From Prevotella sp. (GTDB lineage Bacteria; Bacteroidota; Bacteroidia; Bacteroidales; Bacteroidaceae): a stretch of 64,000 nt of DNA. Positions 5,115 through 63,679 of this stretch are shown here, in pieces. Both the position numbers and the translations under genes were made by a program. How positions within the stretch are numbered: the first letter of the stretch is position 1; every line of letters begins with the position of its first letter. The stretch spans positions 1 through 64,000 of the forward strand of contig JAFUFJ010000019.1 of assembly GCA_017469955.1 (NCBI GenBank), in the 5' to 3' direction. The notes under the pieces were generated by a model that did not search any database, was not told the origin of the DNA, and saw nothing but the letters and a program-made list of their open reading frames with translations.

Positions 5115-5224
5115 AAGAAAGCTATCCTTTTAGGGTGAGAAGTCATAGCATTGTCACTGAGAAACCTATCCTTTCTCACCCAGAACCCATAGACTTCTCG
5201 GGCTAAAAGCTAAGCTTTCTCGGG
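5115..5224. repeat. 110-bp pentameric 22-bp element, copy 1
   Basis: Five contiguous 22-bp units begin at 5115, 5137, 5159, 5181 and 5203. Unit 1 carries AGAAAGCTATCC, unit 4 is AGAACCCATAGACTTCT and unit 5 ends AGCTTTCTC, the inverted form of the left end. It lies between the EptA-like gene and the DUF5020 gene, downstream of the promoter module. Confidence 0.93.
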
Positions 5225-5297
5225 CAGACCAGACACGATAGCGGCCGGCAACCCTATGTGTCAACCCTGTTCATCACCCATAAAACCGACCACGACA

Positions 5298-6032
5298 ATG
5301 AAAAAACTGCTCATCGCAAGCCTGCTTTCCCTGGCATTTCTGCCCCTGACGGCGCAGGACATCCAGCTGCATTACGACCTGGGACACTCCCTTTACGGCG
5401 ACCTTGACGGACGTCCAAACCTGACGTCGACCGTCGAAATGTTCCGCACCGACCGCCTGGGAAGCACCTATTTCTTCACCGATATCGACTATTACACCGA
5501 CGGTGCAGCGGGAGCCTACTGGGAAATCTCGCGCGAGTTCAACGTCTCGGCCGACAAGCATTGGGCTGCTCACGTGGAATATAACGGCGGTGCTACGTCG
5601 ATAGAACACACGGCCGTGGCCACGAGGTTTCAGCATGCACTGCTGCTTGGACCGGCATGGAACTGGGCAAACCGCGACTTTACGGCCACCTTCTCGCTGC
5701 AAGCCATGTATAAACGCTACTTCAAGGGCATGTCACGCAACGGCTTCGACGGGTTTCAACTCACAGCTGTCTGGAGCAAAACCCTTGCCCACGGACTCTT
5801 CACCTTTTCGGGTTTTGCCGATCTCTGGCGCGACAAAGACGTCGCAGGCAAGCTCATCTTCCTGAGCGAACCTCAGCTATGGTGCAACGTTTACACGCTG
5901 AAAGGCACCGAGAACCTTCACTTCAGCGTGGGTACGGAAGTAGAGTTGAGCAACAACTTCGTGTTCAACAACGCCGGCCGCAACAACAAGTTCTACGCCA
6001 TTCCCACACTGGCCTTGAAGTGTAGCTTCTGA
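5298..6032 (+). CDS. DUF5020-like secreted outer-membrane-type protein
   Basis: The 244-residue protein has a signal peptide (MKKLLIASLLSLAFLPLTAQ). It then shows alternating polar/aromatic strands ending in a terminal aromatic residue (ALKCSF), typical of a small beta-barrel. The order of motifs (HYDLGHSLYGD, YFFTDIDYY, GAYWEISREF) is what I associate with the DUF5020 family of Bacteroidetes, related in appearance to nucleoside-channel Tsx-like barrels. Function is unknown. The start ATG at 5298 is directly before the signal peptide; an in-frame ATG at 5256 would spoil it. The gene sits 45 bp before an ABC ATPase and may share its transcript. Confidence 0.7.
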   Translation: MKKLLIASLLSLAFLPLTAQDIQLHYDLGHSLYGDLDGRPNLTSTVEMFRTDRLGSTYFFTDIDYYTDGAAGAYWEISREFNVSADKHWAAHVEYNGGATSIEHTAVATRFQHALLLGPAWNWANRDFTATFSLQAMYKRYFKGMSRNGFDGFQLTAVWSKTLAHGLFTFSGFADLWRDKDVAGKLIFLSEPQLWCNVYTLKGTENLHFSVGTEVELSNNFVFNNAGRNNKFYAIPTLALKCSF

Positions 6033-6077
6033 AACGCCGACACGAAACCGTCCCACGACAGGAAAGAACCGGAAGAC

Positions 6078-6869
6078 ATGTCAGACACCATCCGCATCGA
6101 ACAGCTCACGATAGGCTACCGGCGCACGGCACGAAAGACGCCCGTCGCCGTGGCAACAGGCCTGAACGCCACGCTCATGCCAGGCCGTCTCACGTGTCTT
6201 CTCGGCCGAAACGGCATCGGAAAGTCCACCCTCCTGCGCACCGTCACGGGCTATCAACGCCCGCTCGAGGGACGAGTCTGCATCGGAAACCTCAACCTGC
6301 ACGCAGTCAGCAAGAGCCGACGTGCACGACTTGTCAGCGTAGTGCTCACCGAAAAGACCGACACCGACCGGCTGACCGTGGCCGAACTCGTGGCAATGGG
6401 ACGCCATCCCTACACCGGATTCTGGGGCACTCTCGGCGACAACGACCGCCAAATCGTCGACCGTTCGATGCAGCTGCTCGGCATCACCGGCCTCTCACAA
6501 CGGCTCATAGGCAACCTGAGCGACGGAGAACGGCAGAAAGTCATGATCGCAAAAGCCCTCGCACAGCAGACCGACTCTATCATTCTCGACGAACCAACGG
6601 CCTTTCTCGACTACCCAAGCCGCATCGAAATGATGGAGATGCTGGCCCGACTCGCCCGAGAACAGCAGAAAAACATCCTCGTAGCCACCCACGAATGGGA
6701 CCTCGCACGGCAGCTTTCCGACCAGCTGTGGCTCATGACAAGCGCCACAAACGGACAGACCGTGCTCGAGACAGGCACCCCCGAAGAGCTGCGTTCCACC
6801 CCCATGCTACAGCCATTCTTCACCATCGGCAGGCAGGAAAACGCCGATCCTTGTACTAAAGAAATGTAA
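6078..6869 (+). CDS. ABC transporter ATP-binding protein, iron-siderophore/B12 family
   Basis: The protein has 263 residues with a complete ATPase: Walker A GRNGIGKST, signature LSDGERQK, Walker B SIILDEPTAFLD and the switch VATHEWDLA. Overall it resembles FecE/BtuD/HmuV subunits that drive import of Fe-siderophores, heme or cobalamin through FecCD-type permeases. No permease or periplasmic binding protein is next to it, so its partner must be encoded outside the window or the ATPase may have been separated from its operon. The stop codon overlaps a short palindrome (AATGTAAA-A-TTTACATT, 6863-6879) that could be an operator for the next gene. Confidence 0.85.
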   Translation: MSDTIRIEQLTIGYRRTARKTPVAVATGLNATLMPGRLTCLLGRNGIGKSTLLRTVTGYQRPLEGRVCIGNLNLHAVSKSRRARLVSVVLTEKTDTDRLTVAELVAMGRHPYTGFWGTLGDNDRQIVDRSMQLLGITGLSQRLIGNLSDGERQKVMIAKALAQQTDSIILDEPTAFLDYPSRIEMMEMLARLAREQQKNILVATHEWDLARQLSDQLWLMTSATNGQTVLETGTPEELRSTPMLQPFFTIGRQENADPCTKEM

Positions 6870-6908
6870 AATTTACATTATTATATATGTGCAATCAAGG
6901 AATTTGCT

Positions 6909-6916
6909 TAATTTTG
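6909..6916 (+). promoter_or_regulatory. -7 element before the first FKBP gene
   Basis: TAATTTTG at 6909-6916 fits TAnnTTTG and lies 44 bp before the start codon. I see no convincing -33 TTTG at the right distance. Confidence 0.45.
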
Positions 6917-6959
6917 CCGAGATTTACAACACTCACCCTACATCAAAAAGAAAAACAAA

Positions 6960-7565
6960 ATGGACAACGTTAGCTATGCTTTAGGCCTTGGAATAGGCCG
7001 TCAACTCTCCGACATGGGTGCAAAAGACCTCAACATCGACGACTTTGCACAGGCTATTAAAGACATCATCGCCGGCAGCAAACCCCTCATCGGCGACCAG
7101 GAAGCCCAGCGGCTCGTGCAGGATTTCTTTGCCGAGCAGGAGAAAAAGCAACGCGCTGCAGCAGCCGAACGGTTCAAGGCTGCCAAGGAAGAAGGCGAGA
7201 AATACCTCGCAGCCAATGCCCTCAAAGACGGCGTTCACACCACAGCAAGCGGACTGCAATACCAGATCCTCCGCGAAGGCAACGGCAAAAAGCCCAAGGC
7301 CACTGACCAAGTAAAGTGTCATTACGAAGGAATGCTCGTCGACGGGACACTCTTTGACAGCAGCATCCAGCGAGGAGAACCCGCCACTTTCCCACTCAAT
7401 GGCGTCATCAAAGGATGGACCGAAGGACTGCAACTCATGCAGGAAGGAGCCAAATACCGCTTCTTCATACCCTACCACCTGGGCTATGGCGAGCGTGGAG
7501 CAGGCGCATCCATACCCCCATTCGCAGCCCTTATCTTCGACGTAGAGCTCATTGAAGTGGTATAA
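6960..7565 (+). CDS. FKBP-type peptidyl-prolyl isomerase, cytoplasmic-looking
   Basis: The 201-residue protein has an N-terminal FKBP_N-type helical region (SYALGLGIGRQLSDMG) and a C-terminal FKBP domain from about residue 110. The domain contains YEGMLVDGTLFDSS, VIKGWTEGLQLM and YGERGAGASIPPFAALIFDVEL. Key FKBP ligand-site residues (Tyr, Phe-Asp, Val-Ile, Trp, Tyr) are present, so it is probably catalytically active on Xaa-Pro bonds. No signal peptide is visible, unlike the two paralogues downstream. It is the first of three FKBP genes in a row and is separated from the second by a 110-bp element. Confidence 0.92.
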   Translation: MDNVSYALGLGIGRQLSDMGAKDLNIDDFAQAIKDIIAGSKPLIGDQEAQRLVQDFFAEQEKKQRAAAAERFKAAKEEGEKYLAANALKDGVHTTASGLQYQILREGNGKKPKATDQVKCHYEGMLVDGTLFDSSIQRGEPATFPLNGVIKGWTEGLQLMQEGAKYRFFIPYHLGYGERGAGASIPPFAALIFDVELIEVV

Positions 7566-7582
7566 CCCTGACCACCCTGCAC

Positions 7583-7692
7583 GAGAAAGCATAGACTTCA
7601 GGTCGAGAACCCATAGACTTCTCGGTCAGAAAGCATAGACTTCTCAGCCAGAAAGCATAGACTTCTCAAGCTAAAACCATAGCTTTCTCAGG
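7583..7692. repeat. 110-bp pentameric 22-bp element, copy 2
   Basis: Five 22-bp units start at 7583 and repeat every 22 bp. Units 1, 3 and 4 are nearly the same (AGAAAGCATAGACTTC), unit 2 is AGAACCCATAGACTTCT and unit 5 ends ATAGCTTTCTC. This is the most internally homogeneous copy. It lies between two same-strand FKBP genes. Confidence 0.93.
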
Positions 7693-7741
7693 CACAACAG
7701 AAATCATTCATCAAAAAACAAATAATCAAACAACGAGAAAA

Positions 7742-8623
7742 ATGAAAAAAATCACATTCATGGCCCTTGCAGCCATTACCGCCGCAACATTCACTTCTTG
7801 CGGAAACCAGACTCCAAACGCCAGCTTGAAGAACGACATTGACACCCTGAGCTATGCCTTCGGTCTGGGACAGTCACAAGGCATCGAAGACTATTTCAAC
7901 TACCAAGGCATCGACAGTGCCTACATCGGCGCATTTATTAAAGGCCTGAACGACGGCGCAGCTGCCGGCGACAACAAGAAGAAAGACGCCTACTATGCAG
8001 GTGTTCAGATTGGACAGCAGATCGCACGCCAGTGGGTCAAGGGCCTCAACGGCGAGGTATTCGGACAAGACAGCACGCAGACTGTCTCGCTGAAAAACAT
8101 CCTTGCTGGCTTTGCCAACGGTGCAACCAAGAACTATAAGTACATGGATCAGGAGACCGCACAGCAGATTTTCCAGCAGAAAATGGCAGACATTAAGAAG
8201 GTATATGTCGAGAAAGAATACGGTCCTAACAAAGAAGCCGGCGAGAAATTCCTGGCAGAAAACGCCAAGAAAGACGGCGTGCAAACCCTTGAAAGCGGCG
8301 TGCAGTACAAGGTCATCACCGAGGGTAAAGGTGCTATTCCGACCGACACATCGATGGTAAAGGTCAACTACGAAGGCAAGCTCATCGACGGAACAGTGTT
8401 TGACAGCTCCTATCAGCGCGGCACACCTGCCACGATGAAGGCCAACGAAGTGATCAAAGGCTGGACAGAAGCCTTGGTTCGCATGCCCGTAGGTTCGAAG
8501 TGGGAAGTGTACATTCCTCAGGAAATGGGCTATCAAGACCGCAACATGGGCAACATCAAGCCCTTCTCTGCCCTCGTGTTCACTATCGAACTGCTTGGTA
8601 TTGAAGATCCCAAAAAGCCATAA
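7742..8623 (+). CDS. FKBP-type peptidyl-prolyl isomerase lipoprotein
   Basis: The protein has 293 residues. A lipoprotein signal ends FTSC at about residue 20, so it should be membrane-anchored outside the cytoplasm. A long FKBP_N-type dimerisation region (LSYAFGLGQSQGI...) precedes the catalytic domain from about residue 195, which contains VNYEGKLIDGTVFDSSYQRG, VIKGWTEALVRMPVGSKWE and FSALVFTIELL. The layout matches FkpA/Mip-type periplasmic folding factors. It is 15 bp upstream of the third FKBP gene, so the two form an operon. Confidence 0.9.
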   Translation: MKKITFMALAAITAATFTSCGNQTPNASLKNDIDTLSYAFGLGQSQGIEDYFNYQGIDSAYIGAFIKGLNDGAAAGDNKKKDAYYAGVQIGQQIARQWVKGLNGEVFGQDSTQTVSLKNILAGFANGATKNYKYMDQETAQQIFQQKMADIKKVYVEKEYGPNKEAGEKFLAENAKKDGVQTLESGVQYKVITEGKGAIPTDTSMVKVNYEGKLIDGTVFDSSYQRGTPATMKANEVIKGWTEALVRMPVGSKWEVYIPQEMGYQDRNMGNIKPFSALVFTIELLGIEDPKKP

Positions 8624-8638
8624 TCAGCAAGTCATCCG

Positions 8639-9541
8639 ATGAAGAAAGCATTCCTACTGGCACTTGTTGTCATGGCAAGTGCCTGCTTCACAACGGCAGA
8701 TGCCAAGAAGAAAAAGACCAAGACCATCGTAGCTCCGGCGTCAACCTACGTCGAAGAGGCCATCCCCCTGACCTCTTCACGTGACACTTTAAGCTATGCT
8801 GCAGGCTATGCATCGACCGATGGGCTGCTGAAATACCTGATGAACCAGTATCAAGTCGACACGGCTTACATTGCCGATTTCGTCGAAGGATTCAAGATGT
8901 CACTTGGTAATACGCAAGACCCTAAGCTCAGAGCACAGCATGTAGGCGGGACGATCGCCGACCTTTTTGAGCAGCGTATCTTGCCTACGACGGTCGAAAC
9001 CTTCGCGGGAACTCCCGATTCAATCAATGCTCAGATCTTCGCACAGGCCTTTGTGGCTGCCGTGCTTGGCGACACTTCTGTGCTGAACATGGAAGAAGCC
9101 ACTGAGATAACGCGTTCGAAATCGGAGAGCACCAAGGCCGAAAAAGATGCAGCTTACAGGGTTCACAACCTGCAATGGCTCGTGAACAATGGCCAGCAAG
9201 AGGGTGTTGTCACGACCGAAAGCGGGCTGCAATACAAGGTGATTACGGCCGGAACAGGCGAGGTACCGACAGCAGACGCCAAGGTGACGGTGAAGTATGA
9301 GGGCAAGATGATTGACGGAACTGTTTTTGACAGCTCCTATCAGCGCAATCCCCAGACCTCGACTTTCCGTTGCAACCAGGTCATAAAAGGGTGGACTGAA
9401 GCGCTCACGATGATGCCCGTTGGTTCGAAATGGGAGCTGTATATCCCACAAGAGCTGGGCTACGGAAGCCGGCAAGCCGGCAAGATCAAGCCCTACTCAA
9501 CCCTTATTTTCACGGTCGAGCTGATCAGCATCGAAAAGTAA
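8639..9541 (+). CDS. FKBP-type peptidyl-prolyl isomerase, secreted
   Basis: The protein has 300 residues with a Sec signal (MKKAFLLALVVMASACFTTADA); an AC within it could be a weak lipobox. A basic KKKKTKT stretch follows. The FKBP_N-like region starts at DTLSYAAGYASTDGLL, and the catalytic domain from about residue 205 carries VKYEGKMIDGTVFDSSYQRN, VIKGWTEALTMMPVGSKWELYIP and YSTLIFTVELISIEK. It is a close paralogue of the preceding gene and ends in a transcription terminator at 9625. Confidence 0.9.
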   Translation: MKKAFLLALVVMASACFTTADAKKKKTKTIVAPASTYVEEAIPLTSSRDTLSYAAGYASTDGLLKYLMNQYQVDTAYIADFVEGFKMSLGNTQDPKLRAQHVGGTIADLFEQRILPTTVETFAGTPDSINAQIFAQAFVAAVLGDTSVLNMEEATEITRSKSESTKAEKDAAYRVHNLQWLVNNGQQEGVVTTESGLQYKVITAGTGEVPTADAKVTVKYEGKMIDGTVFDSSYQRNPQTSTFRCNQVIKGWTEALTMMPVGSKWELYIPQELGYGSRQAGKIKPYSTLIFTVELISIEK

Positions 9542-9624
9542 CTGCCTGTCGCCGGGAAGCTTTTCCAGGCTGAAGCGACCGCCGTTTCAGGCTGAAAGGC
9601 ACGGCATGGCGCGCAGAAACATCA

Positions 9625-9658
9625 AGAGAGTTTCTCTGACAGAGGAGCTCTCTTTTTT
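9625..9658 (+). terminator. Intrinsic terminator after the FKBP operon
   Basis: AGAGAG pairs with CTCTCT and an inner CTCT pairs with AGAG. The stem is followed by a run of six T at 9653-9658. Confidence 0.75.
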
Positions 9659-9708
9659 GTGTTATTTTGTCTTTTTGTCATAAAAACATATAAAAATCAT
9701 GCAGAATG

Positions 9709-9739
9709 TTGTCGGAATCGGGCGATTTTCTTAATTTTG
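9709..9739 (+). promoter_or_regulatory. Promoter of the Lrp-family gene
   Basis: TTG at 9709-9711, a 20-bp spacer and TAATTTTG at 9732-9739 fit the Bacteroidetes consensus. The start codon is at 9807, leaving a leader of about 60 nt. Confidence 0.6.
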
Positions 9740-9806
9740 TAGGGTATTTCACTTACATTTTCTCATCAGGACACTGATTACATATCATTAAGAAACCTAC
9801 GTTATC

Positions 9807-10265
9807 ATGGAAAAGATCGACAAAATTGACCGGCAGATTCTTGGCATACTTTCGAAGAATGCGCGTGTGCCATTCAAGGATATTGCATCTGAATGCGGCG
9901 TTTCACGCGCCGCTATTCACCAGCGTGTGCAGCACCTCATGGAGGAAGGGGTGGTGACTGGCAGCCGCTTTGACGTCAATCCAAAGAGTATAGGCTACAG
10001 CACGTGCACCTATGTGGGGCTGAATCTCGAGCGCGGGTCTATGTATAAGACCGTCGTAGAGCAGCTCCGTGAGATTCCCGAAGTGGTGGAAAGTCATTTT
10101 ACCACGGGCCCTTACACGATGCTTGTGAAGCTCTATGCGCGCGACAACGAGCAGCTCATGGACCTGCTTAACAACAAGTTGCAGACCATTCCGGGCGTGA
10201 TGTCCACCGAGACCCTCATCTCTCTTGAGCAAAGTATACGCCGGGAGGTGCCCATCTGCGAATAG
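9807..10265 (+). CDS. Lrp/AsnC family transcriptional regulator
   Basis: The 152-residue protein has an N-terminal winged helix-turn-helix (IDRQILGILSKNARVPFKDIA, then VSRAAIHQRVQHL) and a C-terminal RAM/AsnC ligand-binding domain (VVEQLREIPEVVESHFTTGPYTMLVKLYARD). Such proteins form octamers that sense amino acids and control amino-acid or peptide metabolism. The next gene encodes a peptidase fusion, but a 110-bp element and its own leader separate them, so a regulatory link is only a guess. Confidence 0.92.
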   Translation: MEKIDKIDRQILGILSKNARVPFKDIASECGVSRAAIHQRVQHLMEEGVVTGSRFDVNPKSIGYSTCTYVGLNLERGSMYKTVVEQLREIPEVVESHFTTGPYTMLVKLYARDNEQLMDLLNNKLQTIPGVMSTETLISLEQSIRREVPICE

Positions 10266-10384
10266 TCTGTGGAGCTGACCGGCAAGTCCTTGCCGACTGG
10301 CTTGGCAGCCTTGCCGACCGTTTTTATGTGCCTCCGGTAAGAGAATACCAAGGAACAACGCCAGGAAGGCCAAGAAACACCGCC

Positions 10385-10494
10385 GAGAAAGCTAAGAGTT
10401 ATGCCCGAGAAAGCTAAGGGTTATCGGCAAGAAAGCTATCCTTTCTCGATGAGAACCCATAGACTTCTCGCCCTGAAAGCTAAGCTTTCTCGCT
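10385..10494. repeat. 110-bp pentameric 22-bp element, copy 3
   Basis: Units start at 10385, 10407, 10429, 10451 and 10473. Unit 1 is AGAAAGCTAAGAGTT, unit 2 AGAAAGCTAAGGGTTAT, unit 3 AGAAAGCTATCCTTTCT, unit 4 AGAACCCATAGACTTCT, and unit 5 ends AAGCTTTCTC. The rest of the 304-bp gap before 10570 holds only short GC-rich inverted repeats (GGCAAGTCCTTGCC near 10280). Confidence 0.93.
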
Positions 10495-10569
10495 GACAAG
10501 GCAACAGAAACCGGCAGAGAATTCTCAGCAGACAGGACCGGAAACACGCTCTCAACCCCCGTAAACACT

Positions 10570-12408: not shown

Positions 12409-12447
12409 CACCCCGCAAACCAAAGACAACACAACATCAACCACAAA

Positions 12448-13482
12448 ATGAAAAAAAAATACGTGACACGCATCATCATCGCCATCGTAGCCCTGCTCTT
12501 CGGCTATGCCTACGCTATTCATCCTCTTGTCATGAACAGGAAAGCGGCAAAGCACGCGGAAGCCGTCGACAACACCGACCGACGAAAGCCGGTAGGGCCG
12601 GCCTTCGACGCCGACTCGGCCCTGTTCTTCTGTGCCGAACAGTGTGCTTTCGGCCCGAGAACCATGAACTCTGTCGCCCACGACCAGTGTGGAGAATGGA
12701 TTGTTGGCCGCTTCAAGCAATACGGACTGACGGTCGATCAGCAGAAGACCGACCTCAAAGGATATGACGGAACCACCCTGAAGGCAACCAACATCATTGC
12801 CCGTTACCAGCCCGAAAAGGCCGATCGCATCGTCGTTTGCGCCCATTGGGACAGCAGACCGTGGGCCGACAACGACCCGAACGAGGACAACTGGCACCAG
12901 CCTGTCATGGCTGCAAACGACGGAGCAAGCGGTGTTGCAGTGATGATTGAACTGGCACGGCTGCTGGCTTCGGCAGAACCCCTGCCCATCGGCATCGACT
13001 TTGTGTGCTTCGATGCTGAGGATTGGGGCACACCACAATGGGCAGAAGAGGGACAGGAGTCAAGCGAAACATGGGCACTGGGAGCACGATACTGGTCGGA
13101 AAACCTGCCCGAAGGCTATCATCCGCGCTACGGAATACTGCTTGACATGGTTGGCGGACAGGGCGCAAAATTCTACTATGAGGCCTACTCGAAATACTAT
13201 GCTGCCGATGTCATGAAACACATCTGGCGCGCAGCCCACGACACTGGTATGGGTAGTTTCTTCCCAAAGCGCGACGGAGGAGGGGTGACTGACGACCATG
13301 TGCCTATAAATCAAAAGGCGCATATACCGACAGTTGACATCATTGCCTATTATCCCGACTGTGCAGAAAGTTCGTTCGGACCGACGTGGCATACCGTCAA
13401 CGACGACATGAACCATCTGGATTCACACACGCTGAAAGCCGTCGGACAGACGCTTGTACAGGTGATTTTCAGCGAGAAATAA
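12448..13482 (+). CDS. M28 family metallopeptidase (glutaminyl cyclase-like)
   Basis: The 344-residue protein has an N-terminal membrane anchor or signal (KYVTRIIIAIVALLFGYAYAI). The M28 zinc-site order is present: HWD in CAHWDSRPWAD, Asp in MAANDGASG, Glu pair in FDAEDWG, Asp in LLDMVGG and a late His in DDHVPIN. The spacing resembles M28 glutaminyl-peptide cyclotransferases and aminopeptidases of Bacteroidetes, which act in the periplasm on N-terminal Gln or short peptides. Which activity applies cannot be decided here. It probably shares a transcript with the C26-M19 fusion. Confidence 0.85.
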   Translation: MKKKYVTRIIIAIVALLFGYAYAIHPLVMNRKAAKHAEAVDNTDRRKPVGPAFDADSALFFCAEQCAFGPRTMNSVAHDQCGEWIVGRFKQYGLTVDQQKTDLKGYDGTTLKATNIIARYQPEKADRIVVCAHWDSRPWADNDPNEDNWHQPVMAANDGASGVAVMIELARLLASAEPLPIGIDFVCFDAEDWGTPQWAEEGQESSETWALGARYWSENLPEGYHPRYGILLDMVGGQGAKFYYEAYSKYYAADVMKHIWRAAHDTGMGSFFPKRDGGGVTDDHVPINQKAHIPTVDIIAYYPDCAESSFGPTWHTVNDDMNHLDSHTLKAVGQTLVQVIFSEK

Positions 13483-17720: not shown

Positions 17721-17722
17721 AA

Positions 17723-55457: not shown

Positions 55458-55461
55458 CAGC

Positions 55462-55571: not shown

Positions 55572-55674
55572 GGGATACGTCAGAAGAACGGCTCACGGGG
55601 GACAGCTTACTCGCGGTTTAGGGTGTGGAAAGGAGGGCAGACAAGTTAAAAAATAGGACGAATTTGGGTGGAAA

Positions 55675-55707
55675 TTTTGGTCGGGACGGATATTTTCCGT
55701 ATCTTTG
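55675..55707 (+). promoter_or_regulatory. mutS promoter
   Basis: TTTTG at 55675-55679, a 20-bp spacer and TATCTTTG at 55700-55707; the start codon is 50 bp downstream. Confidence 0.7.
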
Positions 55708-55757
55708 TAGTTCCCATCATCCGGTGGGAAAATGAACCCATCTGACTCGCAACCGCT

Positions 55758-58382
55758 ATGGCAAAAAAGGACAACGGGCTGACACCCATGATGAAACAGT
55801 TTTTCTCGCTGAAGGAAAAGCATCCCGATGCGCTGCTGTTGTTTCGTTGTGGAGACTTTTACGAGACGTATTGCGACGACGCGATTGATGCTGCCAAAAT
55901 CCTTGGAATCACACTTACGCGACGCAATAACGGCAACTCTGCGGCCGCGACTGAGATGGCCGGTTTCCCACATCACGCCCTTGACACCTACTTGCCGAAG
56001 CTGATTCGCGCCGGCAGAAGGGTGGCAATATGCGACCAACTCGAAGACCCGAAGCTGACAAAGACGCTCGTCAAGCGGGGCATCACCGAACTGGTAACCC
56101 CGGGAGTGGCAATGAGCGACAACGTATTGAACTACAAAGAAAACAACTTTCTCGCATCAGTACACTTCGGAAAGGGCATCTGCGGCGTGGCGTTCCTCGA
56201 CATTTCAACGGGAGAATTCCTTACCGGAGAGGGCACTTTCGACTACGTTGAGAAACTGCTTGGGAACTTCCAACCCAAGGAAGTGCTATACAACCGCGAC
56301 CGAAGGCAAGACTTCGAGCGCTACTTCGGCAACCGATATTGCGTGTTTGAACTTGAAGACTGGGTGTTCACAGAGCAGACAGCACGCCAAAAACTCTTAA
56401 AACACTTCGGCACAAAGTCGCTGAAAGGCTTCGGCATCGACCACCTGAGAAGTGGCATAATTGCCTCGGGAGCCATCATGCAATACCTCGAATTAACGCA
56501 ACATGCACACATCGGGCACATCACACACCTGTCGCGTATCGAGGAGGAACGCTACGTACGCCTCGACAAATTCACCATCCGATCGCTCGAACTGCTGGCC
56601 CCGATGAACGACGACGGGCAGTCATTGCTCGGTGTTATCGACCAGACCGTGACGCCAATGGGCGGGCGAATGCTGCGCCGGTGGGTGGTGTTTCCGCTGA
56701 AAGACGAAGCACCCATCAACCAACGCCTTGACGTTGTCGACTATTTCTTTCGAGAGCCCGACTTCAGAAAGACCGTCGACGAACAGCTGCACCGCATCGG
56801 AGATCTCGAACGAATCGTATCAAAGGTGGCCGTAGGAAGGGTGTCTCCGCGAGAGATGGTGCAGCTGCGACTGGCACTACAGGCCCTGCAGCCCGTGAAA
56901 ACCGCCTGCCTCTATGCCGAAAACGAAAGCCTCAAACGGATAGGAGAACAGCTGAACCTGTGCGAATCGCTGCGCGATCGCATCGGCAAAGAGATACAAC
57001 CCGACCCGCCACAGCTGCTCTCAAAAGGCGATGTTATTGCCGATGGATACTCAAAAGAGCTTGACGACTTGCGCAGTATCTCACGCAACGGCAAGGACTA
57101 TCTGCTGCAAATACAGGAACGGGAAAGCGAAATCACAGGCATCGCATCGCTGAAAGTGGGCTACAACAATGTCTTCGGATACTATCTCGAAGTAAGAAAC
57201 ACATACAAAGACAAGGTTCCCCAGGAGTGGGTACGCAAGCAAACACTGGCACAAGCCGAGCGATACATCACCCAGGAACTGAAGGAATACGAGGAGAAAA
57301 TACTCGGAGCCGACGAGAAAATACAGTCGCTCGAGGAGCGACTCTTCGGCGAACTTGTCGCGGAAGCACAAGAGTTCATCCCCCAAATACAGGTCGATGC
57401 CAGCCTCATAGCACGCCTCGACTGCCTGCTTTCGTTTGCAAAAGTGGCCGAGGAAAACCACTATGTACGCCCGGTTATAGAAGACTCAACCCTGTTGGAC
57501 ATACGGCAAGGCCGCCATCCGGTCATCGAAACACAGCTGCCTCTGGGCGAGCGATACGTGCCGAACGACATCCTTCTCGACACCGAACGCCAGCAGATCA
57601 TCATCATAACAGGACCGAATATGGCCGGTAAGTCTGCCCTGTTAAGACAAACAGCCTTAATAGTCTTGATGGCTCAGATCGGCAGTTTTGTGCCAGCAGA
57701 GAGTGCAAAGGTGGGCATGGTCGACAAGATTTTCACCCGCGTAGGTGCTTCAGACAACATTTCTCTGGGCGAATCTACGTTCATGGTGGAGATGACTGAA
57801 GCGGCAAACATATTGAATAATGTGTCGCCACAATCGCTGGTTCTCTTCGACGAACTTGGCCGAGGTACGTCAACCTACGACGGAATCTCCATCGCATGGG
57901 CCATCGTCGAATACCTTCACGAACAGCCAAAGGCACAGGCAAGGACGCTCTTTGCCACCCACTATCACGAGCTGAATGAAATGGAAAAGAACTTCAAACG
58001 CATCAAGAACTATAACGTATCTGTGCGTGAAAAGGACGGAAAGGTCATCTTCCTTCGCAAGCTTGAACGGGGAGGATCGGAACATTCATTCGGCATACAC
58101 GTGGCCGAAATCGCCGGCATGCCCAAGTCAATCGTCAAACGATCGAACGCCATCTTGAAACAACTGGAAAGCGACAATGCACAGGTAGGAACCGTAGGCA
58201 AGCCTAATGCGCAAGCCATCGACTCGTCAAGAGAAGGCATGCAGCTCTCGTTCTTCCAGCTTGACGACCCGGTACTCTGCCAGATACGCGACGAAATACT
58301 CGGCCTTGACATCAACAACCTGACGCCTGTTGAGGCACTTAACAAGCTGAACGACATCAAGAAAATAGTGAAAGGCAAGTAG
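55758..58382 (+). CDS. mutS: DNA mismatch repair protein MutS
   Basis: The 874-residue protein has the mismatch-contacting motif DFYETY (the F-x-E Phe near residue 34) at the N-terminus, then connector, lever and clamp domains. The ATPase has Walker [15 protein letters not shown] near 617 and Walker [16 protein letters not shown]. It recognises mismatches and starts repair with MutL. It is transcribed alone and followed by a convergent terminator. Confidence 0.97.
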
Positions 58383-58439
58383 AAACCATTCAGGCCAGGA
58401 AAAGAAAACAGCCGTCGCTTAGAATAAAACCATAAGAAA

Positions 58440-58477
58440 ATCGCGTGGGAATACCTTCATTCGGTTTCTCACGCGAT
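58440..58477. terminator. Bidirectional terminator between mutS and lgt
   Basis: ATCGCGTG (from 58440) pairs with CACGCGAT (to 58477), extended by GAA/TTC inside, with A-rich and T-rich flanks. It serves convergent genes. Confidence 0.7.
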
Positions 58478-58523
58478 AACTTTATGCTACGCCGACCATA
58501 GCCTTCCTATATAATAAGGATGC

Positions 58524-59366
58524 TCATTTCGCACCCAACCGTTGCATCCATTTGCCTCCACACATACAGAAATAGCCGAGAATGATGAAAGGAATGGAGA
58601 GCAACTGGCCCATATTAAAGAGCATTCCACTCTCAAACGAAACTTGAATGTCCTTCGTATACTCGATGAAAAAGCGGAAAGTAAAAATATAAAACAGGCA
58701 GAAGCCGAAGTAAAAACCACTTCCAACCTTCTCCTTATGCCGTCTGTATATCAGAATCATGACAACAAACAGCATGGCATAGGCAATAGCTTCATACAAT
58801 TGTCCTGGGTGTCGTGGCTGTTGATCGACCTGCTGGAAGATGAAAGCCCAAGGCACATCAGTAGGCTTTCCTATGATTTCTGAGTTCATAAGGTTGCCCA
58901 AGCGGATGAAACATGCCGTGATTCCCGTGGCGATTGCTATGTCATCAAGCACATGCCAAAGGTTCATTCTTGTGTTCTTACAATAGAGCCAAAGGGCTAA
59001 CATCAGCCCAATCGTGCCGCCATGTGAGGCCAATCCTGCATATCCCGTATAATGCCAACCGGCCGAATCCTTTTGCATTGGTATCAACATCTCTATGAAA
59101 TGCTGGGTACTTGACAGGTAATAGTCGGGCTGATAGAACAAGCAATGACCCAGACGAGCACCAACAAGTATGCCGATAAAGCAATAGATAAACAGCGGGT
59201 CGAACAACTCATCTTTCACTTTTTGGTCCTTATAGAGCCACTTCACCATGAAATAGGCTCCGATTAACCCTACGAGCCAACACATAGAATACCAACGAAG
59301 CGTGATGGGACCAAGGTGACACATCACCTCGGAAGGATTCCAAACAATGTAATTAAGTAATGACAT
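58524..59366 (-). CDS. lgt: Prolipoprotein diacylglyceryl transferase
   Basis: The 280-residue polytopic inner-membrane enzyme has the Lgt signature RLGNLMNSEIIGKPTDVPWAF with the essential Arg-x-Gly-Asn and Glu. Also present are GARLGHCLFYQPDYY, GLASHGGTIG and QPRHPGQLYEA. It transfers diacylglycerol from phosphatidylglycerol to the lipobox Cys of prolipoproteins, the first step for the many lipoproteins in this window. It is downstream of ychF on the same strand with a 147-bp gap. Confidence 0.95.
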   Translation of the reverse strand: MSLLNYIVWNPSEVMCHLGPITLRWYSMCWLVGLIGAYFMVKWLYKDQKVKDELFDPLFIYCFIGILVGARLGHCLFYQPDYYLSSTQHFIEMLIPMQKDSAGWHYTGYAGLASHGGTIGLMLALWLYCKNTRMNLWHVLDDIAIATGITACFIRLGNLMNSEIIGKPTDVPWAFIFQQVDQQPRHPGQLYEAIAYAMLFVVMILIYRRHKEKVGSGFYFGFCLFYIFTFRFFIEYTKDIQVSFESGMLFNMGQLLSIPFIILGYFCMCGGKWMQRLGAK

Positions 59367-59405
59367 ATTTCTTAGTATAGTTTGGGTTGACGGAATGTTT
59401 CGAAT

Positions 59406-59505
59406 CTTTTCTCAGGAAAACCAGACGACATTTTCTGGCAGATTGGGCTGGATTTTCTGTCAGACTGATAACCTTTCTCAGGAAAACCAGGTTGATTTCT
59501 CAGGA
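59406..59505. repeat. Degenerate 22-bp-phased repeat between ychF and lgt
   Basis: TTTCT/TTTTCT ends recur at 59412, 59436, 59458, 59478 and 59500 (steps 24, 22, 20, 22). CTCAGGAAAACCAG occurs twice, exactly 66 bp apart (59411 and 59477). Length, unit count and the TTTCTCAG junction recall the 110-bp elements, but the half-site sequences are different. It may be a decayed or distinct relative. Confidence 0.4.
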
Positions 59506-59513
59506 CGAAAGGA

Positions 59514-60614
59514 TTAAACATTGAAGCGGAAATGCATGATGTCTCCGTCTTGAACGATATAGTCCTTGCCTTCAATGCCCATTTTTCCGGCTTCTTTCAC
59601 TGCTGCTTCCGACCCATAGGCGATGTAGTCGTCATACTTGATGACCTCGGCTCTGATGAATCCTTTTTCGAAATCAGTATGAATAACGCCTGCACACTGC
59701 GGAGCTTTCCATCCCTTTTTGTATGTCCAGGCTTTCACTTCCATCTCACCTGCCGTGATAAACGTTTCGAGATTGAGCAGGGAATAGGCTTTCTTGATGA
59801 GTCTGTTAACGCCACTTTCCTCGAGACCTAACTCTTCGAGAAACAGTTGTTTATCCTCATAACTCTCCAGTTCGGCGATGTCTTCTTCGGTCTTTGCGGC
59901 GATGATCATCATCTCTGCACCCTCTTCACGGGCCAGTTCCTCCACCTTTTTGGTCATCTCGTTGCCGTTTTTTGCTTCTGATTCACCGACATTACAGACA
60001 TATAACACGGGCTTTGAGGTTAAGAGAAATAGGTTGCGTGCAGCATCTATTTCGTCCTTGGTTTCAAAGGAAACAACTCGTGCATTCTTACCTTTCTCGA
60101 GCACATCCCTATACGATTCGAGCACGTTGGCTAAGATTTTAGCCTCTTTATTGCCGGCAGCTGCGGCCTTCTGTACTTTGGTAAGTTGCCCTTCTATGGT
60201 CTCAAGATCCTTGAGTTGCAGCTCGGTGTCAATGATTTCTTTGTCGCGAATAGGGTCAATAGTGCCGTCGACGTGGGTGATATTGTCGTCTTCGAAGCAC
60301 CTAAGCACATGGATAATAGCGTCAGTTTCACGGATATTCCCGAGGAATTTGTTGCCCAGTCCCTCCCCTTTTGAGGCACCTTTCACGAGTCCTGCGATAT
60401 CGACTATCTCGCACGTTGCTGGCACAATACGACCAGGATGCACGAGTTCAGCGAGCTTTGTCAGTCGCTCGTCAGGGACAGTTATGACGCCTACGTTGGG
60501 CTCTATTGTACAGAAAGGAAAGTTTGCCGCTTGTGCTTTAGCGCTTGACAAACAATTGAACAGTGTAGACTTACCTACGTTTGGCAGGCCTACAATACCA
60601 CATTTTAATGCCAT
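59514..60614 (-). CDS. ychF: Redox-regulated ATPase YchF (Obg family)
   Basis: The 366-residue protein has the G1 loop GLPNVGKSTLFNCLS, DIAGLVKGASKGEGLGNKFL and CNVGESEAKNG in place of NKxD, as expected for an ATP-preferring YchF. A coiled-coil insert follows, then a C-terminal TGS domain (ITAGEMEVKAWTYKKGWKAPQCAGVIHTDFEKGFIRAEV). It binds ribosomes and affects oxidative-stress responses. Its promoter is the minus-strand promoter-hairpin module at 60646. Confidence 0.96.
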   Translation of the reverse strand: MALKCGIVGLPNVGKSTLFNCLSSAKAQAANFPFCTIEPNVGVITVPDERLTKLAELVHPGRIVPATCEIVDIAGLVKGASKGEGLGNKFLGNIRETDAIIHVLRCFEDDNITHVDGTIDPIRDKEIIDTELQLKDLETIEGQLTKVQKAAAAGNKEAKILANVLESYRDVLEKGKNARVVSFETKDEIDAARNLFLLTSKPVLYVCNVGESEAKNGNEMTKKVEELAREEGAEMMIIAAKTEEDIAELESYEDKQLFLEELGLEESGVNRLIKKAYSLLNLETFITAGEMEVKAWTYKKGWKAPQCAGVIHTDFEKGFIRAEVIKYDDYIAYGSEAAVKEAGKMGIEGKDYIVQDGDIMHFRFNV

Positions 60615-60645
60615 GTTTCTTTATAAAGAATTTGTTTCTTGCTTG

Positions 60646-60780
60646 CAAAGTTACGCAAAAACGAGTGCAATGCAAAAGAAAAGCGAATGATTTTTCTTTT
60701 CATTGCCGAGTGCAAAGTAATTTCGGTGATAGCCAAAGTTACGCAAAAACGCGGGCAATGCAAAGGAAAAGCCGAAGTTT
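60646..60780 (-). promoter_or_regulatory. Two-copy promoter-hairpin module upstream of ychF
   Basis: Read on the minus strand. The distal promoter is CTTTGC (60765-60760), 18 bp, TAACTTTG (60741-60734). Its -7 is followed by an AAATTAC right arm, one base from AAGTTAC. A second stem has arms GCAATGAAAAGAAAA and TTTTCTTTTGCATTGC. The proximal promoter is TTTTGC (60677-60672), 18 bp, TAACTTTG (60653-60646), with no right arm, 32 bp before ychF. Confidence 0.7.
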
Positions 60781-60859
60781 TTAAATTTTCACGGCTGAGA
60801 CTGCAGGTCTTTGGAATCGGCCGAACTTGGGCAATGCACAGATGAATCCCCGTTGCGGG

Positions 60860-61663
60860 TCAGCTCTTTTTCCGGATGTCTGACGGTGACATTCCGAGAT
60901 ATTTCTGCACGAAGCGCGAGAAGTAGGACATGCTTGAGAAGTTGAACTGGCTGGCAATGTCTGAAAGCGAGAGCGTTTTTTCCTTCAGCTGGTTGTTGAT
61001 GTCGATGATGGTAAAGCGGTTTATCCAGTAAGCAGCCGGCTGTCCGCTGACGAGACAGGTCACCTCTGAGAGGTATTTTGGCGTGATAAACAGCTTGTCG
61101 GCATAGTATCCCACGTGGCGTTCCTTGCGGTATATGCCTGTTTCGAGTAGTCTTAGAAAGCTGTTCATCAGGTTGTTGGCGCGCTCAGAGACCAGCATTT
61201 TGTCGTTGATGCGTCGGTGAAATTCGAAGAAGTCGATATACATCACCTGCAGAAGGTTGATGAGAATATCGCGGAAGAAATACTTGTCTTCGTCCTGAAG
61301 TCTTCTCTCCAGCTGGCTGATGTCGTTGTTCAGCAGGTCGTGTTCCTCAGGTAGCAGGGGCATGATGGGGTTGTTGTAGAGCGAGATGGCTCCTTTTATG
61401 TGATAGTTGTTGGTGGGAGTCGACTCTTGAATCAGTTCGGGAGAGACGTAGACCACTCGAGCCATGAAGTCGTGAGAGGGCTGAATGTCGGTGACGAGTC
61501 GGTTGGCAATAATGATCATACTGTCACCGACATTCAGCGTAAAGGGCTGCCCGTTGAACAAGAACCGGCACATTCCACCATTGCATACCACGTGCGAATA
61601 GTACATCCGCAGTGCTTCAGACGTCAGTCTTCCGAGGTGGTTGTCGATGATGATCTCGTCCAT
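60860..61663 (-). CDS. AraC family transcriptional regulator
   Basis: The 267-residue protein has an N-terminal cupin-like sensing part (CNGGMCRFLFNGQPFTLNVGDSMIIIANRLVTDIQ) and a C-terminal double helix-turn-helix (YYADKLFITPKYLSEVTCLVSGQPAAYWINRF ... SLSDIASQFNFSSMSYFSRFVQKYLGMSPSDIRKK). It is 15 bp downstream of the acyltransferase gene on the same strand, so they are probably co-transcribed. Its effector and targets are unknown. Confidence 0.93.
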   Translation of the reverse strand: MDEIIIDNHLGRLTSEALRMYYSHVVCNGGMCRFLFNGQPFTLNVGDSMIIIANRLVTDIQPSHDFMARVVYVSPELIQESTPTNNYHIKGAISLYNNPIMPLLPEEHDLLNNDISQLERRLQDEDKYFFRDILINLLQVMYIDFFEFHRRINDKMLVSERANNLMNSFLRLLETGIYRKERHVGYYADKLFITPKYLSEVTCLVSGQPAAYWINRFTIIDINNQLKEKTLSLSDIASQFNFSSMSYFSRFVQKYLGMSPSDIRKKS

Positions 61664-61678
61664 ACAGGAGCGCTTTTC

Positions 61679-62785
61679 TTATCCGACAATGTATTTGCTG
61701 CCGGGAATGAGGCTGATGAGCTTGGTCGTTATGGCGCAGCACACGAATGTGAGCAAGGCAATAACGGGAATGCAAAGGCTGACAGGCAGCAGGGGACTGG
61801 CGGGGTTGCCGGCTATCAATGCGCTTGCAATGGGAGCCAGGAAGAACAGATGCATCAGATACATGCCGAACGAGAGTTTCGAAAGCGACGTGACAAGGGC
61901 AGGAGCCTTGGGCTGATTGATGGCAGAAAAGACGACGAAAAGGCCGAAAGTTGCCAGCAGAACGTTAGGAGTACAGAACTCCCACGACCACTCTAATGCG
62001 GGAGTTTCGATAAGGTTGCCGGGCACTCCTTTCCACCAAAAACTCCAAGCAGTGAACGTTGCGCCTATCAGGAAGCAGAGCAGTCCCGTCGTGATGCGTC
62101 GCTTTTGCGACCACTTCAGGTGAACTCTTATGTAGTGAGCCAGCACCAGATATCCTAAATAGCCTGAGCAATACCAGAAGAGCGAGTACTGGTTCCAGAA
62201 GCATTCGCCCCACAGTTCGGGCGACACAAAGCGGTGAAGCCACGGCGTCAAGGTGGTGAAGGCGAAGATGGAGATGAAGATGAGTTCTTCTTTTGCCGTC
62301 GACTTCTCGAGCCAAGGCGACACGACTGGTATGATGAGATAGAGGCTAATGAGCGGATACATGAACCACAGGTGGCCCGCCATCGACGGGAAATTGAACG
62401 GCAACAGCTTCAAGTCTGCCATTGATTGCTCCCAAGTCATGCCGCCCCATGCCAACGGAAGAAACGTGTAAAGCAGCATGAAGCAGATGAAAGGAGGCAG
62501 TATTCGCTTGAACCGACGGCGGTAGAACTGGGTCATTGTCTGCCCATCGCGCATGGGAACAAGCAGGAAAGCCGACACAATCATGAACAAAGGTACGGCA
62601 GTCCGGCTGACGCCTCCGTCCCAGAAGGCCACCCAGAAGCGGTTGCTTTCGTTGGCAAGCATCGACATGTTGCCGGCAAGTCCCGACGAGTCGGCACCGT
62701 AAAAATTCTCACTTGCATGGACAAGCATCACCATAAAGCATGCCACCACGCGGATGTAGTCTACAAAAGGAATGCGATCTTTCAT
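61679..62785 (-). CDS. Acyltransferase 3 family membrane protein
   Basis: The 368-residue protein has about ten hydrophobic segments and the family start MKDRIPFVDYIRVVACFMVMLVHASENF, where the His is the usual catalytic candidate, followed by SRTAVPLFMIVSAFLLVP and YRRRFKRILPPFICFMLLY. Such enzymes O-acetylate surface glycans. The ATG at 62785 is used; the open frame extends 28 codons upstream across its promoter. Confidence 0.9.
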   Translation of the reverse strand: MKDRIPFVDYIRVVACFMVMLVHASENFYGADSSGLAGNMSMLANESNRFWVAFWDGGVSRTAVPLFMIVSAFLLVPMRDGQTMTQFYRRRFKRILPPFICFMLLYTFLPLAWGGMTWEQSMADLKLLPFNFPSMAGHLWFMYPLISLYLIIPVVSPWLEKSTAKEELIFISIFAFTTLTPWLHRFVSPELWGECFWNQYSLFWYCSGYLGYLVLAHYIRVHLKWSQKRRITTGLLCFLIGATFTAWSFWWKGVPGNLIETPALEWSWEFCTPNVLLATFGLFVVFSAINQPKAPALVTSLSKLSFGMYLMHLFFLAPIASALIAGNPASPLLPVSLCIPVIALLTFVCCAITTKLISLIPGSKYIVG

Positions 62786-62811
62786 AGTTTTCCGGTTTGA
62801 TTTTCTGGCTG

Positions 62812-62819
62812 CAAAGATA
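62812..62819 (-). promoter_or_regulatory. -7 element for the acyltransferase-AraC operon
   Basis: Minus-strand TATCTTTG at 62819-62812, 26 bp before the start codon. Confidence 0.6.
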
Positions 62820-62907
62820 CGCATAATCGGCAAGAGCAGCAAGCAAAAACCGTAAAAAGTGAAAATCATTCCGCCAAATGAATAACATGATTTGCCGTTT
62901 TCTGTCG

Positions 62908-62915
62908 TAACTTTG
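62908..62915 (+). promoter_or_regulatory. -7 element for the flavodoxin gene
   Basis: TAACTTTG at 62908-62915, preceded by GTCG and followed by CACCG. It resembles the core of the promoter-hairpin modules but without their arms. The start codon is 26 bp downstream. Confidence 0.6.
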
Positions 62916-62941
62916 CACCGAATTTAGACAACATCTCTGAA

Positions 62942-63562
62942 ATGAAACATCTAAAAACCATCGTCGCCTCGCTGGCACTGCTGGTCTCGACGGCCTGCAA
63001 CGGCAGCAAAAGCGGCGCAGAAACAGAAGCAAAGACAATGGAAAAGACAGGAAAGACTTTGGTGGTTTTCTTCTCTCATGCAGGCGAAAACTACAGTGTT
63101 GGCAACATCCCCGTGGGCAATACCAAGATTGTTGCCGACTACATCTCGGAGCTGACCGGCGCCGATCAGTTTGAGATTGTGGCCGACAAAGACTACGACA
63201 TGCCCTACATGCAGCTCATCGAGGTGGCCAAGCAGGAGACAAGAGACGGCGAACTGCCGGCATATCAGGGCGAAGTGAAGAATATCGACGACTACGATAC
63301 GGTCATCATCGGCGGGCCTATATGGTGGGGAACCTATCCACAGGTGATGTTCACCTTCTTCCGCGACTACGACCTCAACGGCAAAACAGTCATACCATTC
63401 TCGACACATGAGGGCAGCGGACTGGGTTCTGTAGTGGACGATGTCAGAGAAGCCTTCCCCGAAGCCGCCGTCAAAGGCCAGTTCAGCATCTACGGACATG
63501 AGGTGCGTTCGGGTAAGTCGAAGGTCGAAAAGTGGCTCAAAGGCCTCGGACTCGTGAAGTAA
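62942..63562 (+). CDS. Exported flavodoxin-like lipoprotein
   Basis: The 206-residue protein has a lipobox (LALLVSTAC), then a flavodoxin fold: TLVVFFSHAGENYSVGNIPVGNTKIVADYI, DDYDTVIIGGPIWWGTYPQVMFTFFRDY and PFSTHEGSGLGS. FMN-binding loops look complete (the first loop is extended compared with small flavodoxins). A lipid-anchored flavodoxin outside the cytoplasm is typical of Bacteroidetes and suggests an electron-transfer or reductase partner not visible here. Confidence 0.88.
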   Translation: MKHLKTIVASLALLVSTACNGSKSGAETEAKTMEKTGKTLVVFFSHAGENYSVGNIPVGNTKIVADYISELTGADQFEIVADKDYDMPYMQLIEVAKQETRDGELPAYQGEVKNIDDYDTVIIGGPIWWGTYPQVMFTFFRDYDLNGKTVIPFSTHEGSGLGSVVDDVREAFPEAAVKGQFSIYGHEVRSGKSKVEKWLKGLGLVK

Positions 63563-63569
63563 ACACCGC

Positions 63570-63679
63570 GAGAAAGCTATCCTTTCAGGGTCAGAAGTCT
63601 ATGGGTTCTGCCTGAGAAACGATAGCTTTCTGGCCCATAACCCTATGACTTCTGGGGCTAAACCCTTAGCTTTCTCAGC
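63570..63679. repeat. 110-bp pentameric 22-bp element, copy 9
   Basis: Units start at 63570 and then every 22 bp: AGAAAGCTATCCTTTC, AGAAGTCTATGGGTTCT, AGAAACGATAGCTTTCT, ATAACCCTATGACTTCT and TAAACCCTTAGCTTTCT. It is just after the flavodoxin stop codon. Confidence 0.93.

Follow-up and report, generated by a model that had tools for sequence, protein, structure and literature searches.

The 64,000-nucleotide stretch analyzed here (the window; positions 1 to 64,000 of contig JAFUFJ010000019.1 in the Prevotella sp. assembly GCA_017469955.1) contains nine intergenic arrays, each made up of five units on a 22-bp grid, that are in step with an 11.02-bp periodicity of AA and TT dinucleotides, hereafter the lattice, which extends along most of the chromosome. 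Such arrays, of which the genome has hundreds, in step with an 11-bp A/T pattern that continues even through genes, suggest a protein scaffold along which the DNA runs in a constant rotational setting. Relatives in LeuS point to a Prevotella-like bacterium. The window is part of a 2.26-Mb draft genome (22 contigs, 75.6% complete; denoted G000, with C-numbers for its contigs), of which 1,978,680 bases were read; genomes of relatives (G006, G014, G016) and their loci (L-numbers) served for comparison, most relatives being sampled by a single stretch of about 20 kb. All lattice measures are our own, with off-band noise and shuffled sequences as controls.

The nine copies, which we term type A arrays, occupy positions 5115..5221, 7583..7689, 10385..10491, 28072..28178 (upstream of leuS), 37290..37396, 46309..46415 (with convergent called genes on both sides), 50166..50272 (the window copy nearest to a perfect inverted repeat), 55462..55568 and 63570..63676. 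No strand is assigned to any of them. They constitute one repeat family, which was found independently of an earlier sequence-only reading that had placed nine 110-bp elements at the same starts, all of which are confirmed. The length is constant, as that reading held, but the conserved object is 107 bp long, the last 3 bp being flank. It consists of five 19-bp quasi-palindromes of the form xAGAAnnS-WWW-SnnTTCTx and four 3-bp G+C-rich spacers, with a 22-bp period. All units share near-invariant AA at their positions 4-5 and TT at positions 15-16 (1.8-1.9 bits). The outer words of the array are specific to their position and mirrored around unit 3, and the ends consist of GAGAAAGCT in inverse orientation, that is, of terminal inverted repeats such as characterize miniature inverted-repeat transposable elements (MITEs).

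A profile grown from the nine copies, a search that the sequence-only reading had proposed, retrieves 169 copies scoring above 40 bits, 153 of them above 90 bits, in the bases read; within the first 1.23 Mb, scores exceed 100 bits in no fewer than 104 copies, against a maximum of -89 in shuffled sequence. Among the matches listed for a plain sequence model, nearly all copies cover 102-107 of the 107 positions. Single type A units number 785 in the genome compared with 376 in a shuffle, and the runs phased at 22 bp comprise 150 of five units, 9 of six, 2 of four, 11 of three and 21 of two. Thus, the claim of exactly five units holds as the rule for type A in this genome (150 of the 161 runs of four to six units), but not without rare exceptions, namely the sixes and the fours. 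The array ends are sharp: at either end, the adjoining positions score as a unit in 4 of 153 copies. In several weak arrays, the middle unit is degraded, yet five slots remain filled in phase.

The distance from the module of units 1-2 to that of units 4-5 is 66 bp in 156 placements and 88 bp in 4, all with six units; a distance of 44 bp (134 cases) represents the model matching itself one unit along, and nothing else occurs within 30-139 bp. This test covers the 160 placements in which both modules score, to the exclusion of weak copies, and no phase-breaking indel was found among them, although the mean pairwise identity of type A copies is only 0.71. The earlier suggestion that the phase is kept rather than the sequence is thereby borne out; of the counterexamples that had been named for it, copies with four or six units exist, whereas unevenly spaced units were found in none of the 160 placements. 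In two of the six-unit copies (C22:93985 and C6:170630), two adjacent units are identical or nearly so; hence, unit expansions arise but are rare.

Over most of the chromosome, AA and TT recur at 11.02-bp intervals and GC is in antiphase; the pattern is coherent over 1-3 kb and runs through gene boundaries. When the arrays are masked (300 bp around each), the amplitude of the 11-bp autocorrelation is 0.017 at lags of 22-132 bp, 0.011 at 770-1100 bp and 0.004 at 2200-2530 bp, the 10.0- and 12.0-bp components being smaller at all lags. All 15 contigs or contig parts that were read peak at 11.02-11.04 bp at lags of 1000-2000 (23-60 times noise), and 72% of 6,572 segments of 600 bp lie above the 99% level of an off-period control. 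In the window, the lattice spans positions 1..64000 without strand assignment, at 21 times off-band noise for lags of 130-400 and 36 times for lags of 400-1000, and is weakest at about 14-25 kb in a 1-kb track. At 200-1500 bp from the arrays, with the phase taken from the array center, AA ranges from 0.67 to 1.52 times, TT from 0.67 to 1.59 times and GC from 1.29 to 0.63 times the mean; CC, GG and CG are also in antiphase to AA/TT (z of 30-48 if positions are independent). This is the rotational WW/SS pattern (W, A or T; S, G or C) known from histone chromatin, and AA/TT every 11.02 bp with G+C in antiphase is the signature of DNA bent toward one face.

The lattice is absent in C6:260-280 kb (G+C of 0.37 in the first half) and much weaker in C15:200-240 kb. 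These two stretches (C6:260000-280000 and C15:200000-240000) are of lower G+C and lack type A and type C arrays (see below), with type B checked in the second only; they are possibly recent imports, in which case the absence of the lattice might help detect foreign DNA.

Inside genes, the lattice is written mainly in synonymous codons. At 200-1500 bp from the arrays, the G+C content of third codon positions (GC3) ranges with phase from 0.790 to 0.483, compared with 0.60-0.51 at the first and 0.42-0.35 at the second position, the corresponding amplitudes being 0.143, 0.043 and 0.032. Synonymous shuffling within genes reduces the coding amplitude at lags of 130-400 from 0.0181 to 0.0016, a loss of about nine tenths, and codon shuffling reduces it to 0.0002. 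Lattice strength is similar inside and between genes, and coherence at lags of 440-880 is likewise similar within one gene (0.0159) and across genes (0.0183). An artefact of the assembly or of the protein code was considered as the source of the lattice and rejected: the relative G016, in one contig, also has the lattice, and synonymous shuffling removes most of it.

The arrays and the lattice share one register. The flanks carry TT and AA at the phase of the array for at least 242 bp on each side, and T at the TT phase is elevated in coding DNA as well. For copies above 60 bits, the flank at 60-660 bp lies within 60 degrees of the array phase in 98% of cases on the left (n=162) and in 96% on the right (n=160), with resultants of 0.93 and 0.91, respectively, compared with 0.018 for 400 random centers. 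The pooled resultant then falls in 600-bp steps, from 0.70 (660-1260 bp) through 0.45 and 0.33 (1860-2460 bp) to 0.17 and 0.13. The 22-bp phase that the sequence-only reading attributed to the elements is conserved but is not a property of the arrays alone, since it corresponds to two periods of the lattice with which they are in register. The arrays show a 22-bp polarity, AA alternating with TT; for AA minus TT, the lattice has a small 22-bp component (0.0008 compared with 0.0188 for AA+TT at 11.02 bp).

The lattice could have arisen without selection on it if a protein scaffold with a register fixed at the arrays leaves one side of the DNA exposed, and damage or repair that differs between faces imprints the A/T pattern over time. 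The response of all codon positions, strongest at the third, is expected where selection against change is weakest, and the array-anchored phase agreement decays with distance, as such an imprint would predict. We nevertheless consider this origin improbable: codon positions 1 and 2 follow the phase too, and with one genome the imprint is inseparable from selection. It would still require the same scaffold and the same phasing by arrays, so that it would not remove their anchor role.

Type A is not the only array in this genome. Type C units, GCAAAAGATSATSTTTTGC, lie on the same 22-bp grid in 64 runs of at least two units, none of which starts inside a called gene; exactly three units are present in 54 of the 64. 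Type B comprises 31 runs, also on the 22-bp grid, of units around TACATCnnnGATGTA, often with A-like units alongside (a mixed type); none of its 26 exact sites lies within a called gene. Thus, the earlier interpretation, confined to the nine elements, was too narrow, the lattice and the other array types lying beyond it, and the five-unit plan it regarded as fixed is bound to type and species, with three units in type C and six in most loci of the relative G006 (7 of 10).

The array vocabulary looks regional, perhaps macrodomain-like. C15:1-166000 contains no type A copy above 40 bits, with two weak A-like two-unit runs only, and holds 0 type A, 0 type B and 17 type C arrays, compared with 169, 31 and 47 elsewhere (Fisher test of A versus C, 5e-11, for a region picked after looking; the contig-by-type chi-square gives p 0.012, with the contig order not established). 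C7 and C15:166000-280000 were seen to carry type A only. The one match to DnaA falls on C20. Dispersed sites with a seemingly uneven regional distribution, as in C15:1-166000 with type C only, may recall the matS/MatP system, in which matS structures a chromosome; we know of no link between matS and sequence periodicity. The available text of one study describes matS as the 13-bp target of MatP, with 23 repeats in one domain (PMC3330122).

Gene calls were made with a crude home-made caller (1,396 genes) that tends to trim starts. Only 1 of 165 placed type A copies overlaps a called gene, so that the description of the elements as always intergenic nearly holds; 4 further copies lie at the ends of the sequence read. 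The genes on either side of a copy are convergent in 48, co-directional in 82 and divergent in 34 of 164 cases; relative to the available gaps of at least 130 bp, this is 48 copies for 116 convergent, 82 for 380 co-directional and 34 for 162 divergent gaps. The median distance is 95-120 bp to stops and 219-249 bp to called starts, the latter an overestimate because starts are trimmed. Taken together, the 253 distinct A, B and C arrays (including 54 of the 64 type C runs) are spaced more evenly than random intergenic sites placed one per gap: gaps below 1.5 kb make up 2.5% compared with 10.6% expected, and the coefficient of variation is 0.75 compared with 0.90 (0 of 1000 nulls in each case).

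The proximity to stops and the 48 copies in 116 convergent gaps might be taken to indicate transcription terminators or RNA hairpins acting as mRNA stabilizers or attenuators, and single copies do fold better than shuffles on both strands (z of -2.1 to -14.9), the copy at 50166 being an almost perfect inverted repeat. However, across 153 copies, left unoriented, Watson-Crick pairing in the nested hairpin amounts to 0.697 compared with 0.715 in column shuffles (z -4.8), and pairing is below the shuffles in all 11 pair sets (z of -0.9 to -13.9; one set is part of another), including every unit, with -13.9 at unit 3, and every spacer-centered palindrome. An excess of compensatory base changes was sought in the 153 copies, and none was found; RNAalifold on the nine window copies showed both partners changed in 1 or 2 pairs, which carries little information. 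The family consensus is palindromic, yet single copies are less so than the columns permit, the asymmetry being strong at unit 3, which is present in two orientations. Since self-pairing of the copies falls short of that in column-shuffled controls, conservation does not concern hairpins, and an RNA hairpin or a cruciform was rejected even though single copies fold well. With 34 of 164 copies between divergent genes, no Rfam match at gathering score and no tRNA in the window, a role as terminators or hairpins is scarcely plausible, in keeping with the earlier argument from gene orientation that simple termination does not suffice.

About 169 dispersed intergenic copies with terminal GAGAAAGCT inverted repeats could also represent a mobile or selfish repeat, MITE-like or REP/BIME-like, that is spread by a transposase and has no chromosomal role. 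Consistent with mobility, no such array was seen by eye in the 620 bp upstream of leuS in three relatives (L169-L171), and at E<=1e-9 the type A sequence was detected in 1 of 200 genomes of the genus, that is, its own, under strict filters with the best 19 candidates scored per genome. The absence of a phase-breaking indel in the 160 placements tested at this level of divergence, the agreement of 96-98% of flanks with the lattice phase and the even spacing common to different array types all argue against this explanation, which we consider very unlikely. REP/BIME elements are intergenic mosaics of palindromic units, present in hundreds of copies per genome with variable spacing and tied to RAYT transposases. 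The arrays resemble them in being extragenic, palindromic and numerous and differ in the fixed 22-bp grid and unit count; no RAYT (PF01797) match was found in the 75.6% complete genome, in a search that matches 5 of 14 controls. The nearest repeat by organism and unit length is BrickBuilt, a MITE of Porphyromonas gingivalis, also in the Bacteroidales, which, according to the available text of its description, is intergenic, with 19 copies of 1 to 22.8 tandem 23-nt units, some indels, and a leader and a tail with inverted ends; 22- and 23-nt repeats are reported there for strain W83 (PMC4596501). Compared with BrickBuilt as described in that text, type A arrays have a near-equal unit of 22 bp, a fixed number of units, no indels and neither leader nor tail. 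In the open-licence literature, we found no description of these arrays, in line with the earlier statement that no described family has this plan, or of a kilobase-coherent bacterial lattice; this negative is weak, being confined to that literature.

Arrays with a 22-bp period occur in relatives. The words of type A look private to the source genome: at E<=1e-4, matches were found in 5 of 40 genomes including its own, those outside it being weak. By contrast, 22-bp arrays with different words seem widespread in Bacteroidales. Repeats at lag 22 occur at 15.1 per 100 kb in the source genome, 7.0 in G016 and 11.3 in G006, compared with 0-1.6, 0-1.0 and 0-6.9, respectively, for 12 other lags (44 aside), and none was found in 50 kb of Escherichia coli. 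Across 72 named loci, whose titles mostly give Prevotella or Prevotellaceae, lag 22 leads with 67 places (44 bp, 35; 21 bp, 34; 12 bp, 33), and in 8 loci titled Bacteroides, Phocaeicola or Mediterranea it accounts for 6 places, the next lag for 3. In G006, the scorer finds six units in 7 of 10 loci and 5, 5 and 8 in the others; six is the commonest count in this genome, with eight-unit arrays seen in L045 and L274 (G006:C106:80001-100000). In G014, all 6 loci have five units, and by eye, an additional unit, displaced from the grid by one base (a 23-bp step), follows or precedes them in 4 of the 6. We also observed 22-bp arrays with unrelated words in L170, L171, L173, L174, L182, L188, L203, L221 and L236, such as those around GCAAAATGGGCCATTTTG in L173 and around CGTTTCC...GGAAACG in L221 (Bacteroides mediterraneensis).

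The lattice has a narrower distribution. It is present in two other sampled genomes of the genus: in 15 of 16 stretches of 20 kb of G016 (the weakest at 4-8 times noise; the exception has a G+C of 0.37), where the array vocabulary differs strongly from type A, and in 6 of 8 stretches of G006, with a period near 10.94. Among the 73 named loci of at least 9 kb (seven of the 80 being shorter and left out), it occurs in 3, namely L224 (Prevotellaceae KH2P17), L245 (Prevotellaceae SUG2085) and L189 (Segatella baroniae DSM 16972), the first and the last covered by one 23-kb locus each; L169, the closest in LeuS, is intermediate. It was not observed in single stretches of 11 other genomes or in 50 kb of E. 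coli; of 20 stretches taken, five, which were contigs of 340-3,049 bp, were not scored. Lag-22 places per 100 kb number 8.9 in lattice-positive stretches, 5.3 in three intermediate ones and 4.0 in lattice-negative ones, with control lags at 0.3 or below. Across leuS, compared in 25 of the 80 loci, the GC3 amplitude per segment is 0.17-0.22 in the source genome versus 0.007-0.10 in 23 of the 25 relatives (permutation, 0.047); it is 0.07-0.09 in L169, 0.13-0.20 in L245 and 0.05-0.12 in L224, the latter two being lattice genomes with little projection on the phase of the source genome. The phases of arrays and flanks agree at 0.84 in G016 (41 flanks; random windows, 0.50; the lattice-free stretch L149 excluded) and at 0.48 in G006 (30 flanks; random windows, 0.19).

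Fixed geometry and count with free words, the absence of pairing covariation, even spacing and a kilobase-scale register fit the sites of a symmetric DNA-binding protein. We therefore propose, and give an even chance to, arrays that are phase-setting, high-affinity sites for an abundant putative nucleoid protein holding the chromosome in a fixed rotational register. Each 22-bp unit would bind one symmetric dimer through two 11-bp half sites, five dimers would stack on one face of the DNA, and additional protein would spread outward over 1-3 kb of DNA adapted to that face, which would result in a continuous bent or coated fiber. The same geometry, with different base contacts, would serve to read types A, B and C as well as the vocabularies of other species. 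A period longer than 10.5 bp would be in keeping with underwound DNA (10.5/11.02 - 1 = -0.047, by our arithmetic).

The main rival holds that the lattice is primary: selection or mutation favors bending every 11.02 bp, owing to supercoiling or to solenoid or plectoneme geometry, and the arrays are where non-coding DNA follows this preference best, with no dedicated binder. C15:1-160000 has the lattice in the absence of any type A copy above 40 bits, G016 has it with a quite different array vocabulary, and A-tract periodicity of about 11 bp is known in many bacteria, as far as the available texts of two studies describe it (PMC4132750, PMC3431218). A smooth bending preference would not need the sharp ends, the species-specific words or the fixed counts of five in type A and three in type C (54 of 64), and the 22-bp AA/TT polarity inside the arrays is small in the lattice; moreover, the sole long region that lacks A arrays carries C arrays. 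On balance, we regard a primary lattice as possible, if on the unlikely side.

Several observations weigh against the proposal that arrays set the phase for a nucleoid protein. The arrays do not always go with the lattice because at least one lag-22 repeat is present in 46 of 82 lattice-negative stretches (some of these being plain tandem repeats by eye), and L173, with two five-unit arrays, lacks the lattice. A arrays are separated by distances that have, at best, a weak preference for multiples of 11.02 bp in the five ranges tried (below 2.5 kb, n=9, R 0.60, p 0.04; 2.5-4 kb, n=24, p 0.1; 9-15 kb, n=96, R 0.19, p 0.03), distances of 4-9 kb and those of A-C pairs lack it, and one array therefore does not clearly set the phase of the next. 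Random 110-bp windows also match their own flanks (R 0.71 in three contigs of the source genome) because the lattice is nearly everywhere, so that arrays are distinguished from random points by the array-anchored phase only, and the better agreement of arrays with their flanks is due in part to a stronger signal. Spreading outward from the arrays is our inference; the lattice may instead be primary, with the arrays as its strongest points. Finally, no binder is pinned down: the genome, at 75.6% completeness, has 6 HU-family matches and, unlike histone chromatin with its similar WW/SS pattern, no match to the histone fold (PF00808), in a search that matches 3 of 14 controls.

Some neighbors of the window arrays deserve mention. 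An AsnC/Lrp-like regulator gene, below the curated cut-off, lies at 9807-10262, about 120 bp from the array at 10385. AsnC/Lrp-class proteins can wrap DNA as rings of dimers, and this regulator could be a candidate binder. Three consecutive genes for FKBP/BamJ-like peptidyl-prolyl isomerases occupy 6960-9541, the first two being separated by an array. The two window genes that were compared with phage and plasmid collections yielded no match. A second repeat family in the window consists of promoter-like units, CTCGCTTATTCGTAACTTTGCA, at 1-215, 4976-5103, 28379-28507, 50286-50480 and 60646-60782, which we take to resemble the Bacteroidetes -7 box; they are 66 or 88 bp apart (87 once), mostly on the same 22-bp grid, and in 3 of the 5 places a type A array lies no more than about 200 bp away.

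Helical-period A/T clusters over long stretches are known from Caenorhabditis elegans, where periodic An/Tn clusters (PATCs) have a period near 10 bp and occur in germline genes. The lattice shares with PATCs the long range of the A/T signal and differs in that PATCs are eukaryotic, with a period near 10 bp; we know of no 22-bp anchor arrays in PATCs. PATCs affect transgene silencing, as stated in the available text of one study (PMC7725773). As far as the available texts go, bacterial A-tract periodicity of about 11 bp consists of AA/TT signals about 100 bp long (PMC4132750), spans much of the chromosome in some species and falls preferentially at third positions in coding DNA (PMC4132750, PMC3431218). 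The work of Mrazek's group describes persistent periodicity in some chromosomes, and in its available text we found no description of kilobase phase coherence or anchor repeats (PMC3431218). The lattice resembles this periodicity in having AA/TT near 11 bp in both coding and non-coding DNA; unlike the roughly 100-bp signals of those texts, it keeps its phase for 1-3 kb, has SS in antiphase and is accompanied by discrete arrays in register.

We give slightly less than an even chance to the view that some Prevotellaceae have a chromatin fiber in which a wrapping or coating protein keeps most of the chromosome at a single rotational setting for kilobases at a time, with fixed-count 22-bp arrays about every 7 kb to nucleate and phase it; the register would be strong enough to dictate synonymous codons, and the array vocabulary would turn over by species, and even by region, with the geometry staying the same. 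If so, a kilobase-coherent rotational positioning code, overlapping the protein code and with identifiable anchor sites, would extend over most of a bacterial chromosome, and the purpose of the bacterial periodicity of about 11 bp would become directly testable. This would be a natural case of chromosome packaging shaping codon usage and would imply that a bacterial family abundant in guts and rumens has a nucleoid protein that is either new or put to a new use. Whatever its mechanism, the anchored lattice can be measured in genomes, and we found no earlier description of it.

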